From contig JAUQPL010000014.1 of assembly GCA_030550395.1 (NCBI GenBank), forward strand, positions 1 through 45,877: 45,877 bases of DNA. The letters are read 5' to 3'. A program made the position numbers and the translations under genes. Under the pieces are notes generated by a model. The model made no database searches. It was not told the DNA's origin and worked only from the letters and a program-made list of their open reading frames with translations. This document shows, in pieces, positions 36,930 through 42,470 of the stretch. Within the stretch, counting starts at the first letter, position 1, and the number at the start of each line of letters is the position of its first letter. Origin of the DNA: Bacteroidota bacterium. GTDB lineage: Bacteria; Bacteroidota; Ignavibacteria; Kapaibacteriales; HRBIN21.

Positions 36930-38234
36930 ATGCCTTGCCGAAGAATACAGGAACTCCTGTTGTGTATCTGCTGCGGTCGGCTCATCGCCCAACAGCTCTT
37001 CTGGTTAGGTCAGCTTCCCGGTGGTGGAACAAGCGAAGCCTACGCTGTCTCCGATAGCGGAACCGTGGTAGTTGGAAGAGCAGAGAATGCCAACTACTTC
37101 TGGAGAGCGTTCCGATGGACTCCAGCCGGTAGGATGGAACCGTTGGGAACCTTTGGTGGGAGCTTTAGCGAAGCTACCGCTGTTTCTCCCGATGGTTCTA
37201 TCATCGTCGGCAGAGCCCAAGACAGTCTCGGGCGATGGCGCGCTTTCCGATGGAGCGCCTCCGAAGGGCTCCAAGACTTGGGTACGCTGGGCGGACGGGA
37301 AAGCGAGGCTTTTGACATTGCTCCCTCCGGGATTATCGTCGGGAAAGCTGCCAACGCTAGCCTTCAGTCCCGCGCCTTTCGCTGGAGCCCGGCTGAAGGT
37401 ATGCAGGAGCTCGGGACCTTTGGGGGCCCGGAGAGCGCTGCGCTGGCCATTGCTCGTGACAGCTTTGTCATCGTTGGATGGGCAGAGAATGCTGACCGCC
37501 AACCCCGAGCATTCCGATGGAGTCCCACCACAGGAATGGAAGACTTAGGCACTCTTGGTGGCGCCCGTAGTGAGGCTTATGCTGTCTCTGCCAATGGTTT
37601 TGTCGTAGTTGGCAGAGCTGAGAACATTGACCGTCTCTGGCGTGCCTTCCGATGGACACCCAGCACTGGGATGCGCGAGCTGGGTACGCTCGGCGGGCGG
37701 GAAAGCGCCGCTATGGCTCTCTCTGCCGATGGCTCTATCGTGGTCGGATGGGCAGCAACTCCGACGGCAGATTGGCACGCTTTCCGATGGACCGAAGAAA
37801 CCGGCCTCCAAGACCTCAACCTCCTCTATGCCCGCGTAGTCGGGCGCTCGCTTCTCTACACCGCCAATGGTATATCCCCCGATGGGCGGTATATCGTCGG
37901 CTATGGCATTAATGCGTCCACAGGACGCCGGGAAGCTTACCTACTGGACACGCAGGGCACCACATCGGTAGCAGGCCATACGAGCCAGCCGTTCTATTTG
38001 GTCGTAGAACCCAACCCCGTCATTGGCACTGGGATTGTGCGTCTACGGGCAGCAACACGGCCGGTGCGCGTTTCTATTTTGGACCTTCTTGGTCGGGAGC
38101 TTATTGTACTCGGCACGGTAGTAGGCATCGGGGAATCCACGGTTCCTCTGCCTGCATTGCCCGCAGGCACGTACCTTGTGCTGGCCCGTGCCGATAACAC
38201 TACCGCAGCCGCGCCGGTAGTAGTCTTACGGTAG
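36930..38234 (+). CDS. Exported HAF-repeat propeller protein with type IX sorting-like domain
   Basis: A 434-residue secreted protein. A short hydrophobic N-terminus (ELLLCICCGRLIAQQ) is a probable signal peptide. Residues 26-295 are six repeats of 45 residues with the pattern LGTLGG..SEA.AVS..G.VVVG.A, then RAFRW, and a degenerate seventh repeat follows (ISPDGRYIVGYGINASTGRR). These are 'extracellular HAF' repeats, and seven units would close a seven-bladed propeller. The final 80 residues are a sorting-like domain (VVEPNPVIGTGIVRLRAATR, then VSILDLLGREL and LPAGTYLVLAR), predicting export by the type IX system. Ligand and function are unknown. It converges on the TonB receptor gene with 28 bases between the stop codons. 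Confidence 0.85.
   Translation: MPCRRIQELLLCICCGRLIAQQLFWLGQLPGGGTSEAYAVSDSGTVVVGRAENANYFWRAFRWTPAGRMEPLGTFGGSFSEATAVSPDGSIIVGRAQDSLGRWRAFRWSASEGLQDLGTLGGRESEAFDIAPSGIIVGKAANASLQSRAFRWSPAEGMQELGTFGGPESAALAIARDSFVIVGWAENADRQPRAFRWSPTTGMEDLGTLGGARSEAYAVSANGFVVVGRAENIDRLWRAFRWTPSTGMRELGTLGGRESAAMALSADGSIVVGWAATPTADWHAFRWTEETGLQDLNLLYARVVGRSLLYTANGISPDGRYIVGYGINASTGRREAYLLDTQGTTSVAGHTSQPFYLVVEPNPVIGTGIVRLRAATRPVRVSILDLLGRELIVLGTVVGIGESTVPLPALPAGTYLVLARADNTTAAAPVVVLR
37005..37814 (+). repeat. Six in-frame 135-bp repeats (HAF units)
   Basis: The span is exactly six units of 45 codons. Conserved words at corresponding places are LGTLGG or LGTFGG, (V/I)VG(R/W/K)A, and RAFRW or HAFRW. The DNA copies have diverged but keep phrases such as TTCCGATGGA, so duplication is old and under protein-level constraint. 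Confidence 0.85.
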
Positions 38235-38262: not shown

Positions 38263-40473
38263 CTACTGCCCAATGCGCCAGCGCATCCCGATGTAAAAGA
38301 GCCGTGCCTCCAGCGGCCCCCAGACTAGCGAGGCATCAAAGTAAGGTCCACGAGGATTCTGTGGGTCAATGACAGCAACCCGCTGGAGGGCATTGGTGGC
38401 GTTTTCCACCCCGATGTAAAGCTCCCACGCTCCAAAACGACGCGTTATCTGCCCATTGACCCGGAAGACTGCTGGGAAGCGCTCGCTCCAGCGAAGACTA
38501 TCAGGATTGCCGGCCGACGTTGGGAGCCGACCAGAGCTATTCCAAACCAGCGTTGCATCCACTTGCCACTGCCTATCAGCCATCTCATAATGCACTGTTG
38601 CCAAGACCCGATGCGGGGAAACCAGGGGTCGGCGTCGCCATTGCCCTCCCGTCCGTGCCCATGTATCCCACCACCGGTAAGCAAGGCGCAGCTCTATGTC
38701 AGCAATCTTCCCTTCCAGCTGTACCAGCACGGAGTTGGCGTACGCTCGTCCTACATCCTGCAGGAGTAGCAGCCGCGCACTGGCATCCATGTCCGGCACC
38801 ACCTGATTCCGGAATTCTGTCCGAAATGCCTCTACATCCACCGTCCAGAGTTCGCCCACCGGCAGCAGCACCGTCACCGAGCCGCCATAGTTCCATCCCC
38901 ACTCGGGAGAAATCTGTCCCCAAACAATCCGCCGTGCACTGAGGAAGTAGGGAAGATTATCTGCAACCACATTCGGCACTCGCATCCCCCGACCTCCAGA
39001 GAGGCGCAGCGTCACCAACGTTACAGGCCGCCACTTCAGATATGCCCTCGGCGTCAGGAAAGCCCCGTAAAGATTGTGCCAGTCCCCTCGGAGCCCTGCA
39101 ACCAGCGTTACCGTTGAGAAGGGGAAAGTCGCCTCAACGAAAGCTCCTGGCACGATCTCCCGGCGTGTCCACGCCGTATCGGCAAAGCGCTCATCGTAGA
39201 GGTCATTCATCACATCAACCCCATACCGGAGCTGCATCTCCGACCATTCGCTTACTCCCATGAACTTGACCATGCTCATGTACTCACTGCCAGTGTACGG
39301 ACGTAGTCCTAAGGTAGCTTCTATCCACTGCCCAACGATGGCAGCCCGGAGCCCAAGCTGCGTGGTCTCACTCACTGGAATAGTGCTTTTGAGGATGAGC
39401 TCACCTCGGCGCTCACGCGTGTGAACTGCATACGAGCGGCTTGCCTCCACTGCCGAAAGGGTACCACTCCGCCGCTCTTCTACCACCCCCTTGGCAAGGG
39501 CGTGAAACTCTATTGCAGTCGTATCTCCTAAATGGCTCAACCATGCCATAGCATTGAGCTGCCGCAACAGTGGCATGTCAATAAACCCATCTCCGTTGAC
39601 ATCCCGTTCCCACGACGTCAGACGTCCATGCAAGAACCCCATCCCAAACCAACGGGAAGACAGCCGATGAGCAGAGGTCAGGTTCAGCTCCAACCTCCCT
39701 GCTGTGCTCGCATATGAGTTGGCGAAGAAGGGAACGTCATTATACGGCTTCCGATAGTTCAGAGCAATCGTGCCCGTCAGCCCTTCGTAACCCTCAACCA
39801 CAGAGGCAGCTCCTTTGGAGATAGCAATCCCCTCCAGGAAAGGTCCGGGCACAAACTCCCACTGGAAGGGTAATGCCAGTCCTCGCATGACGGGAACGGC
39901 CTCGGTAAGCGTTTGTACGTAGGCTCCTGTCAACCCCAGCATCTGGATCTGGCGCGCACCCGTCAGCGGATCAGAAAAGGTTGCCTCCACCGTCGGACTC
40001 TTTTCAAAGGACTCTGCCAACGAACAACACGCCGATTGCTCCAATTGCCGAGAGGTGATAAGCTCTGTTTTCACGGGTGCAGGAGCAATCGTTGGCGCTG
40101 CTGCCTCAACTTCTACTTGAGATACCTCATACGCCGCTACCAATACGATTCTCAGCGTATCGGTTACCTGGGCTGGAAGCACGGTATCTCGGCTACGGTA
40201 GCCAACGGAGCTAATTCGTAATGTGTCTGCTCCCAAAGGACGGCTCAATATAAAGTGTCCGTCCGACGCCGTGATTGTTCCAACTGTTGTCCCCACCCAC
40301 CGAACTCGCGCCCCCGGAAGGGGACGTCGAGCTCCATCAGGCTCTTCTCCGTACACAAAACCATGAATGCGGACACCCTCTTTCGGGCCCCGACCATGTC
40401 CCTCTGGATGCTGTCCCTTCAGTCCAACAGCCACGACAAGTGCAAGACAAATGCTCATTAGGCACACTATCAT
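38263..40473 (-). CDS. TonB-dependent outer-membrane receptor with Cys-Cys plug motif
   Basis: A 736-residue receptor. A signal peptide ends near residue 20. Residues of about 34-112 form a carboxypeptidase-regulatory-like domain (GFVYGEEPDG, LPGARVRWVG). The plug then has SACCSLAESFEKSPTVEATF and DPLTGARQIQMLGLTGAYVQ. The rest is the 22-strand barrel (GLRGDWHNLYGAFLTPRAYL). The adjacent cysteines 149-150 and the DPLTGARQIQMLGL segment mark a Bacteroidota receptor subgroup that I recall lying beside cysteine-rich or heavy-metal genes; metal or metal-chelate uptake is inferred, not shown. ATG 40473 has a perfect GGAGGAG, but that site sits in one arm of a 14-bp inverted repeat. Preceded by a cysteine-rich gene on the same strand. 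Confidence 0.88.
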   Translation of the reverse strand: MIVCLMSICLALVVAVGLKGQHPEGHGRGPKEGVRIHGFVYGEEPDGARRPLPGARVRWVGTTVGTITASDGHFILSRPLGADTLRISSVGYRSRDTVLPAQVTDTLRIVLVAAYEVSQVEVEAAAPTIAPAPVKTELITSRQLEQSACCSLAESFEKSPTVEATFSDPLTGARQIQMLGLTGAYVQTLTEAVPVMRGLALPFQWEFVPGPFLEGIAISKGAASVVEGYEGLTGTIALNYRKPYNDVPFFANSYASTAGRLELNLTSAHRLSSRWFGMGFLHGRLTSWERDVNGDGFIDMPLLRQLNAMAWLSHLGDTTAIEFHALAKGVVEERRSGTLSAVEASRSYAVHTRERRGELILKSTIPVSETTQLGLRAAIVGQWIEATLGLRPYTGSEYMSMVKFMGVSEWSEMQLRYGVDVMNDLYDERFADTAWTRREIVPGAFVEATFPFSTVTLVAGLRGDWHNLYGAFLTPRAYLKWRPVTLVTLRLSGGRGMRVPNVVADNLPYFLSARRIVWGQISPEWGWNYGGSVTVLLPVGELWTVDVEAFRTEFRNQVVPDMDASARLLLLQDVGRAYANSVLVQLEGKIADIELRLAYRWWDTWARTGGQWRRRPLVSPHRVLATVHYEMADRQWQVDATLVWNSSGRLPTSAGNPDSLRWSERFPAVFRVNGQITRRFGAWELYIGVENATNALQRVAVIDPQNPRGPYFDASLVWGPLEARLFYIGMRWRIGQ

Positions 40474-40479
40474 AGTGGG

Positions 40480-40581
40480 CTCCTCCAACCATTGTGAGAC
40501 ATAAGCTATAGCCACTCAAAACCGCTGCAGGAAACACTCCCACAGGCGCTGAAACAAGGCCAGAGAGAATGGTTGGAGGAG
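40480..40581 (-). promoter_or_regulatory. RBS-sequestering inverted repeat between cysteine-rich gene and receptor gene
   Basis: CTCCTCCAACCATT (40480-40493) and AATGGTTGGAGGAG (40568-40581) are perfect 14-bp inverted copies, 74 bases apart. Read on the minus strand, the first arm begins immediately after the TGA of the cysteine-rich gene. The second arm contains GGAGGAG, the ribosome-binding site six bases before the receptor ATG. The loop can itself form an 8-bp hairpin around CTGTGGGA and TTCCTGCAG, with two G-U pairs. The structure would block receptor translation when formed. A ribosome ending at the upstream stop would cover the first arm and open it. Confidence 0.6.
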
Positions 40582-40995
40582 TCAACAGCGAAATTCACAC
40601 AGGAGCGATAACGCCGGTGCTCTCTGTCTTGCTCTCTCTGTCCGATTATGGAGGACGTAAGAACCCGACTTCACCCCCCACAGGTCGGGCACTAAGAGCA
40701 GTCCGCCAGATATCCCCCCGAACAGGTCTTTTGGGGCAGGGAGCGATCCCTGTAGCACGAAGTCAGAGAGATCTTCTGAACAATGCCCCTTGACGCAGCA
40801 GCTCAGCAGGTCTTCTTGGCAATCCCCTTCAGGATGCGTTAAGTCCCTACAGCAACATTCCTCCTCTCCTTCCACATTCGCAATGGTGCTGCAAATCAGA
40901 GGGGCACGAATGCAAACACACTGCAGTATCGGTGCTGTCCCGACGGAAACTCCGTAGAGAACGGCTACCGCCAATGAAATTCGCTGCCATCCCAT
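40582..40995 (-). CDS. Cysteine-rich exported small protein
   Basis: A 137-residue protein with a signal peptide (MGWQRISLAVAVLYGVSVGTA) and 12 cysteines, arranged as CVC (26-28), C35, CCC (47-49), C59, CC (66-67), C72 and two near the end. HPEGDC and KGHC bring histidines close, so metal binding is plausible. In Bacteroidota, small cysteine-rich proteins of the HYC_CC_PP kind lie beside TonB receptors with a CC plug motif; this could be a divergent relative, but the HYC motif is missing. The frame is open to 41106, while ATG 40995 best fits the signal peptide. It precedes the receptor gene and probably shares its mRNA. The last 40 residues are less convincing as folded protein. Confidence 0.6.
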   Translation of the reverse strand: MGWQRISLAVAVLYGVSVGTAPILQCVCIRAPLICSTIANVEGEEECCCRDLTHPEGDCQEDLLSCCVKGHCSEDLSDFVLQGSLPAPKDLFGGISGGLLLVPDLWGVKSGSYVLHNRTERARQRAPALSLLCEFRC

Positions 40996-41051
40996 TGCAT
41001 GTCCAGCGGACGAAGAGCTATCACCACGATTGTGCGTCTGATGGAGCGCTC

Positions 41052-41080
41052 TTGCCAGTGGGGGGAACTCTTTAATTTTG
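41052..41080 (+). promoter_or_regulatory. Promoter TTG-N18-TAATTTTG for the PNPOx-UbiA fusion gene
   Basis: TTG at 41052 and TAATTTTG at 41073 are separated by 18 bases, close to the Bacteroidota -33/-7 spacing. The element ends 40 bases before ATG 41121. This is the only promoter in the window where I see both parts. It lies within the divergent region upstream of the cysteine-rich gene. Confidence 0.6.
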
Positions 41081-41120
41081 TCGACCGGCTGGTCAGTCAA
41101 ACTCATTCCAAGACCCTTCT

Positions 41121-42470
41121 ATGGACGTGGAAGTGTTGAAAACCATCCAGCAGGTATTCCGGGAAAACAAAGCCTTCACACTCGTAACCCAGGGTTCACA
41201 CGGTATATGGGCTGGGAAAGCCTACTTTGGCGAGCAGGATGGCTACCTTTATACAGCGCTGGAGCAAGGGCGTAACTACCGCAACCTCATGGAGAATCCT
41301 CGGGTCTTTTTCGTTATTGAGCGGGGAGTGCCCGACCGCTTCATTCAAGGTGAAGGAATCGCCGAACGGTTGGGACCGATTGAGGAATGCTCAGAGCGGA
41401 GCATTATTTTCCGCAAGGCACTGGAGCTGGTACTCTTCGCTAAGTTGATTCCTGGCGTCACCGTATTCCGGATTCGTCCGACCCGACTGTTTGTATCCGA
41501 CTTCACCCGTGAGTGGAAGCCTCGAGCAGAGATAGAGATCACGGAAGAGGCTTTAGCGTGTTTCCGTCAGCACCGGCCTAGACAGCCATGGCTTTCCCTG
41601 TTCTGGAAAGCTATTCGACCCTTTGCTTTTCCGGCAACGCTGGCGCCCGTGCTCTTAGGCTCTTTAATTGCCCCGACAATCGATTGGCTCCGCCTCCTTT
41701 TGACACTGCTGGGCACGATGCTAGCTCACGCAGGGGTTAACGTCATCAGCGACTATATGGACTGGCGGCGTGGAGCGGATACTTGGAAGGTACTCGGCTC
41801 CAGCCGTGTGCTTGTTGATGGTCTCATGGATCCACGAACCCACCTGCGCTTCGGTATAATTCTGCTGCTCTTAGCCACGCTCATCGGCGTATGGCTCGTT
41901 GGGCTAAGCGGACCAGCTATTTGGTACCTGATGGCAGCTGGAGCCGCATTGGGTATCTTCTACACTGTGCCGCCTATCGGACTCAAGTATCGGGCGTTGG
42001 GGGATATTGCCGTCTTCCTGGCTTTCGGTCCTCTGATGGCGCTTGGGGCATACTATGTCCAGACCTCCCAGCTGACGTGGATTCCAGTCTGGCTCTCTGT
42101 ACCCATTGGCCTATTGACGATTGCAATTTTGCACGGCAATAACTACCGCGACATTGCCGAAGATCGCGCCGCTGGATACCGTACAGTAGCCAGCCTGATA
42201 GGACCACGGGGATCGGCTTACTACTACGCCCTGCTGGTGGCGGGAGCATATATCTCGGTTGGAGTGTTTATCGCTCTGGGATGGTTGCCGCTGTGGTCTC
42301 TTGGAGTCCTCTTCTCCCTACCTTTGGCATGGCGCAATGTAACGGTAGCCTTCAACCATGCACGAGTAGCTTTCAGCTTCTTAGATCTGCTCACGGCACA
42401 GCTGCACCTTGTGTTCTCGCTCTTACTGGTCGCTGGAGTATTACTGCAGCGCTTTGCACCTATTCCATGA
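41121..42470 (+). CDS. Fusion of FMN-binding split barrel (PNPOx-like) and UbiA/MenA-type prenyltransferase
   Basis: A 449-residue two-domain protein. Residues 1-150 resemble the pyridoxamine-5'-phosphate-oxidase-like split barrel (FRENKAFTLVTQGSHGIWAG, NYRNLMENPRVFFVIE, FRIRPTRLFVSDF), a fold that binds FMN, F420 or haem. Residues of about 160-449 are a UbiA prenyltransferase with nine likely membrane helices. The two aspartate motifs are NVISDYMDWRRGADT (near 207) and NNYRDIAEDRAAGYRT (near 340), and bind the prenyl diphosphate through magnesium. The second motif resembles MenA, which prenylates dihydroxynaphthoate for menaquinone. The fused N-domain is unusual for MenA; it may reduce or hold the aromatic or quinone substrate, which is inference. 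It overlaps the next gene by ATGA. Confidence 0.85.
   Translation: MDVEVLKTIQQVFRENKAFTLVTQGSHGIWAGKAYFGEQDGYLYTALEQGRNYRNLMENPRVFFVIERGVPDRFIQGEGIAERLGPIEECSERSIIFRKALELVLFAKLIPGVTVFRIRPTRLFVSDFTREWKPRAEIEITEEALACFRQHRPRQPWLSLFWKAIRPFAFPATLAPVLLGSLIAPTIDWLRLLLTLLGTMLAHAGVNVISDYMDWRRGADTWKVLGSSRVLVDGLMDPRTHLRFGIILLLLATLIGVWLVGLSGPAIWYLMAAGAALGIFYTVPPIGLKYRALGDIAVFLAFGPLMALGAYYVQTSQLTWIPVWLSVPIGLLTIAILHGNNYRDIAEDRAAGYRTVASLIGPRGSAYYYALLVAGAYISVGVFIALGWLPLWSLGVLFSLPLAWRNVTVAFNHARVAFSFLDLLTAQLHLVFSLLLVAGVLLQRFAPIP

Follow-up and report, generated by a model that had tools for sequence, protein, structure and literature searches.

A covarying stem joins a cysteine-rich leader to a TonB-dependent receptor gene in Candidatus Kapabacteria and may serve metal sensing

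So far, leader proteins that control copper genes post-transcriptionally have been described in a few Proteobacteria; CutF (PMC9973294) and CruR (PMC9426467), the two such systems that have been studied, both sense copper. In Rhodobacter capsulatus, CutF of cutFOG is a Sec-exported leader with a cysteine motif (CxxxC), encoded directly upstream of a copper gene; its translation is required, its C-terminus carries a stalling-like motif, and an mRNA stem-loop hides the Shine-Dalgarno (SD) sequence of the next gene (PMC9973294). The same survey, which used PP near the C-terminus as a filter, found proteins resembling CutF in Bacteroidota as well (40% after normalisation), encoded ahead of TonB, OEP and CusA genes, and the sections available to us report no covariation of the stem-loop in that phylum (PMC9973294). 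In Bordetella pertussis, CruR is a cysteine-motif uORF standing first in an operon with the TonB-dependent copper receptor gene bfrG (crtA); arrest occurs near its C-terminus and copper lowers receptor output, while no SD-blocking hairpin is described in the available parts of these papers (PMC9426467; PMC12914433). Copper uORFs with RAPP or RGPP have been reported missing from Bacteroidota (PMC12992588). Further afield, the nascent SecM, MifM, VemP and TnaC leaders hold the ribosome near their ends and thereby alter downstream RNA structure or transcription (PMC9973294); they have no homology to the proteins considered below, for which arrest is proposed, and respond to secretion state or tryptophan.

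The locus described here has the mechanism of CutF, as we read it, and the gene order of CruR. The window (the whole stretch of DNA analysed, 45,877 nt) belongs to a member of Candidatus Kapabacteria, judged from a 71-74% identical relative. Its minus strand encodes a TonB-dependent receptor of 736 aa (38263..40473) with a CarboxypepD_reg-like domain, plug and barrel, preceded by a cysteine-rich ORF (40582..41106). On the plus strand, 36930-38234 encodes a HAF-repeat protein that bears a type IX secretion sorting tail and whose gene converges on that of the receptor, and 41121-42470 encodes a PNPOx-like N-terminal domain (a weak Pfam match) apparently fused to a MenA/UbiA prenyltransferase. 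Of 123 genomes from the order, 80 were found to have the receptor, and most of the order loci read have a small cysteine-rich ORF with a hydrophobic N-terminus directly upstream of it. Residues 149-150 are CC, invariant in 28/28 homologues; CrtA, in contrast, lacks conserved cysteines, and the two receptor families differ. A search of solved structures with the receptor returned weak TonB-receptor matches only.

The upstream ORF, whose position and architecture are conserved in relatives, comprises 174 aa from its first ATG or 137 aa from the signal-peptide start MGWQRIS at 40995. It has a hydrophobic N-terminus, 12 cysteines in a C..CC..CC pattern and the C-terminus LLCEFRC-stop, and its product is predicted to be exported and may bind metal through the cysteine motif. 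No Pfam or NCBIfam model matches it. Direct membership of DUF2946 was rejected, as that profile matched neither the window leader nor 12 relatives up to E 10; across the phylum it was detected in 1 of 148 genomes, at a single locus (L219, G062:C1:1088669-1088941) whose genome also has a HYC_CC_PP gene. The leader thus differs from CutF in its lack of a DUF2946 match and in its cysteine spacing, and from CruR, a DUF2946 protein that carries RAPP and acts through Rho (PMC9426467; PMC12914433), in having no DUF2946 match and no RAPP.

Its closest named relatives are the NCBIfam family HYC_CC_PP (NF047658), small exported cysteine-rich proteins of Bacteroidota, and profile comparison indicates that the Kapabacteria leaders are related to them. 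At the 28-bit cut-off of NF047658 neither the window leader nor the same-genus copy gives a match, so that the window copy lies below detection, while among leaders at the orthologous place two pass (34 and 44 bits) and three fall just below. In a sample of 392 Bacteroidota genomes, 112 contained HYC_CC_PP. As at the window locus, the gene that follows the leader is related to metals; behind HYC_CC_PP it encodes a TonB receptor that shares the CC plug motif, an RND pump of the CusA type, or a CusC-like or HMA-type protein, these classes being assigned from sequence motifs with the HMA class checked separately. At one locus (L067, G243:C1:2051735-2052858) a pair of HYC_CC_PP leaders is encoded back to back, one on each strand, which suggests divergent metal operons with one leader each. 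At two loci (L009 in G028, L007 in G057) HMA genes lie between the leader position and the receptor, with no HYC-type leader directly before the latter; in G028 a HYC_CC_PP ORF occurs further upstream. Among openly licensed papers we found none naming HYC_CC_PP, and earlier work may exist elsewhere.

Between leader and receptor, the first-pass annotation had pointed to a perfect 14-bp inverted repeat starting right after the leader's TGA (40582..40584), and inspection of the minus strand bears this out. Arm 1, the anti-SD CTCCTCCAACCATT (40568..40581), occupies the first 14 bases past the stop; arm 2, AATGGTTGGAGGAG (40480..40493), is complementary to it at 14/14 positions and has as its last seven bases the whole receptor SD, GGAGGAG (40486-40480), which the spacer CCCACT separates from the receptor ATG (40473-40471). 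A predicted fold of 171 nt of the minus-strand RNA has this stem as its main feature (-58.3 kcal/mol, z -2.5, with 2/200 shuffles equally good). The 74-nt loop between the arms (40494..40567) contains the 8-bp hairpin noted earlier, which the fold also predicts; no counterpart was seen in folded relatives, whose loops vary in length and content, and no known cis-regulatory RNA model of Rfam matched. Ligand sensing by the loop, suggested at first, is accordingly rejected. No terminator-like site was found in the region either, and an intrinsic terminator was discarded as a candidate. Elsewhere in the same genome, a second SD-covering stem (CCTCTTGTCG..CGACAGGAGG; L197:12704-12760, contig C9) follows a stop codon directly, in the gap that separates an electron-transfer-flavoprotein-like ORF from the one behind it; a cysteine-rich leader is absent there.

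The window stem exceeds chance, and the decisive evidence for this is comparative. In this GC-rich stretch the link score, which in the order set counts expected pairs between 25 nt immediately past the leader's stop codon and 25 nt immediately ahead of the next start codon, is just moderately unusual, being reached by 2/60 or 3/40 dinucleotide shuffles. A perfect 12/12 helix at these two fixed places is rare, since at least 11/12 occurs in 0.16% of swapped arm pairs; among control gene pairs, 2/116 have a Watson-Crick helix of at least 11/12 there. Across 64 loci of the order (leaders and start codons picked by script and partly corrected by hand) the link score was 8.2 against 3.4 in shuffles, and across 81 HYC_CC_PP loci, scored with 28-nt ends, 8.9 against 3.7; same-strand control pairs, drawn from stretches of four genomes and including the window's own pair (n=133), gave 3.6 against 3.1. 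Scores of at least 10 were found at 32/62 order loci and 40/78 HYC loci, compared with 13/132 controls (Fisher 6e-10 and 5e-11). The pairing falls where an SD-blocking stem would place it: linking probabilities at +1..+14 past the stop were 0.46-0.67 in the order and 0.46-0.75 in the HYC set (controls 0.22-0.30), and before the start they reached about 0.6 at -8..-15 and -8..-17, respectively (controls 0.17). At HYC loci the leader stop codon itself is often paired.

Compensatory change in the arms, named beforehand as the comparison that could refute the stem, was found: the architecture is kept and the pairs covary. Arms from one locus pair better with each other than with arms swapped between genera (25/63 order loci at rank <=0.05, KS p 5e-10; HYC set, KS p 4e-14), and swapping inside genera weakened pairing too. 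With one value per genus (30 genera) p is 0.004, the cautious figure, since some loci are close relatives. A Watson-Crick match count made without an energy model agrees with the energy-based result. In the ungapped arms of the window and its two nearest relatives, 4/11 pairs are changed on both sides, a count reached by 2/500 shuffles and no slid register, which rests on three sequences and a register set by hand. About half of the loci have no strong stem, e.g., L018 (from the window's genus), L020, L025 and L028. Strong stems follow the class of the downstream gene, with 32/43 before a TonB receptor or CusA pump and 1/20 before a small HMA or CPMH-motif protein, so that the latter loci serve as an internal negative control. 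Overall, to judge from these alignments and predicted folds, a leader followed by an SD- or start-blocking stem recurs in the order and across Bacteroidota, in bases that differ yet pair.

The protein sequence is conserved mainly at its very end. Leader sequences change quickly, sharing 11-36% identity with the window copy, yet keep the C..CC..CC pattern, and across relatives they finish in L-C-x-[FL]-[RL]-[ILC]-stop, with 1.9-3.0 bits of information at the last three positions. The arginine codons of this tail vary synonymously (CGC, CGG, CGA, CGT, AGA, AGG), which indicates selection on the peptide. Three leaders of family f3 of the order (L086, L087, L089) end instead in SSIYFSSNL[IV] and retain a stem over the SD (TTCTCCTT/AAGGAGAA); in this family the usual tail motif is lost and the stem is weaker. 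PP is common in relatives' leaders, 9-20 residues before the stop (mostly 13-20 in HYC members). The window tail RAPALSLLCEFRC differs from CutF in having no PP, and it contains no proline-rich or RAPP C-terminal stalling motif; the leader would therefore fail the PP filter of the CutF survey (PMC9973294).

We put at roughly 0.7 the probability that the cysteine-rich ORF is a regulatory leader of the CutF/CruR kind, in which a ribosome that pauses or arrests at the leader's stop, depending on metal, makes the start of the receptor gene accessible. The ORF would act as a uORF and the stem as its output device. When the leader is untranslated, or the ribosome leaves it fast, the 14 bases after the TGA would pair with the receptor SD region and block initiation; a ribosome that pauses or is arrested while its A site holds the leader stop would cover about 10-12 bases past the stop, remove arm 1 and free the SD, so that receptor is made. 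The conserved tail is the likely pausing element, and the exported cysteine cluster may be a sensor of metal, most likely copper, that sets the dwell time of the ribosome. For an uptake receptor the expected sign, as in CruR, would be that scarce metal keeps the ribosome in place and the receptor on, and that bound metal releases the ribosome and turns it off; this is opposite to CutF, whose downstream gene is not an outer-membrane receptor. With an mRNA footprint that reaches about 15 nt beyond the P site, a ribosome stopped at a PP motif would presumably fall short of the stem, which leaves the last codons or the stop as the place where the relevant pause has to occur.

Modelled energies are consistent with this proposal. 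When 12 nt past the stop are covered, opening the start region becomes cheaper, on average by 5.3 kcal/mol in the order, 5.4 in the HYC set and 0.6 in controls (p 2e-14 and 8e-21 versus controls). In the window the modelled cost is 17.5 kcal/mol with the leader untranslated, or 21.6 when folding begins at the stop, and covering brings it down to 10.9, a drop of roughly one third to one half. The modelled unpaired probability of the window's SD region rises from 0.17 to just about 0.25 when arm 1 is covered, because weaker alternative pairs form, and coupling there may therefore be partial.

As to the input, the first-pass annotation had proposed a coupling switch responsive to cysteine supply, metal state or progress of the peptide. 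The coupling itself stands, insofar as a predicted stem that hides the ribosome-binding site is conserved and keeps a fixed relation to the stop of the leader and the start of the next gene; cysteine supply and a ligand-binding loop do not. Metal state is likely the better input, as relatives of the locus lie beside HMA proteins and a P-type ATPase, and CusA-type pumps directly follow HYC leaders. Copper is the most likely metal, on account of these metal neighbours and pumps, the CC motif of the receptor, the three COX1-family genes and HMA-domain genes of the same genome, and the copper-sensing CutF and CruR systems. A Flavobacterium psychrophilum transcriptome paper, looked through for copper data, does not mention copper.

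The geometry of the stem alone would also give plain translational coupling, in which receptor output follows leader translation for reasons of stoichiometry or to prevent orphan initiation, the leader being an ordinary periplasmic metal-binding protein and nothing being sensed. We regard this as unlikely, though it deserves serious weight: it would not account for conservation of the last residues before the stop (about 2-3 bits) while the rest of the leader diverges, or for the same arrangement before genes that handle metal to opposite ends, receptors on one side and CusA pumps on the other, and the closest studied relatives in kind are sensors. Less probable still is transcriptional control, with leader translation governing Rho access or an attenuator and the stem a by-product or a protection of the RNA. 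CruR does act through Rho with a long intergenic region (PMC9426467), and flavobacterial stems are rich in AT, with T-runs behind them at some loci. However, the window region has no terminator-like site, arm 2 lies on the start region at the spacing of an SD blocker, and Rho control needs no perfect SD-anti-SD stem.

Attenuation by cysteine starvation, in which stalling at cysteine codons would set receptor output, is very improbable and was rejected: the leader has 12 such codons, one of them the last before the stop in the window's genus, but most lie too far upstream for a ribosome starved there to disturb the stem, leaders outside the genus mostly end in I or L, and the downstream genes are metal rather than cysteine genes. 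A chance palindrome without function can be set aside as equally improbable: GC sequence rich in SD motifs forms stems easily, as the shuffles of the window attest, but recurrence with covariation over genera and phylum contradicts it and the arm-swap test rejects it at the level of the class.

With metal-sensing through arrest at the leader stop as the preferred reading of the window, its extension to the family is more tentative, and we hold it to be somewhat less than an even bet: HYC_CC_PP proteins and their divergent relatives may be Bacteroidota-wide metal-sensing leaders that work by arrest at the termination site, where a ribosome held at the stop, and not one held at PP, would alone open the next gene, and one device would serve receptors for uptake with one sign and efflux pumps with the other.

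The general kind is already known, CutF-like proteins having been listed in Bacteroidota (PMC9973294). New here are the phylum-wide evidence for stem covariation, the tail motif adjacent to the stop, and Kapabacteria members that have diverged, lack PP and would be missed by the PP filter and by existing models alike. By comparative evidence, HYC_CC_PP, a large family of Bacteroidota with no assigned function, and its relatives in Kapabacteria appear to use a leader with an SD- or start-blocking stem before TonB receptors and CusA pumps. The family thereby gains a testable function, the residues next to the stop codon become a candidate for the arrest motif, and the combination of leader and stem could explain how metal receptors are controlled in Bacteroidota.
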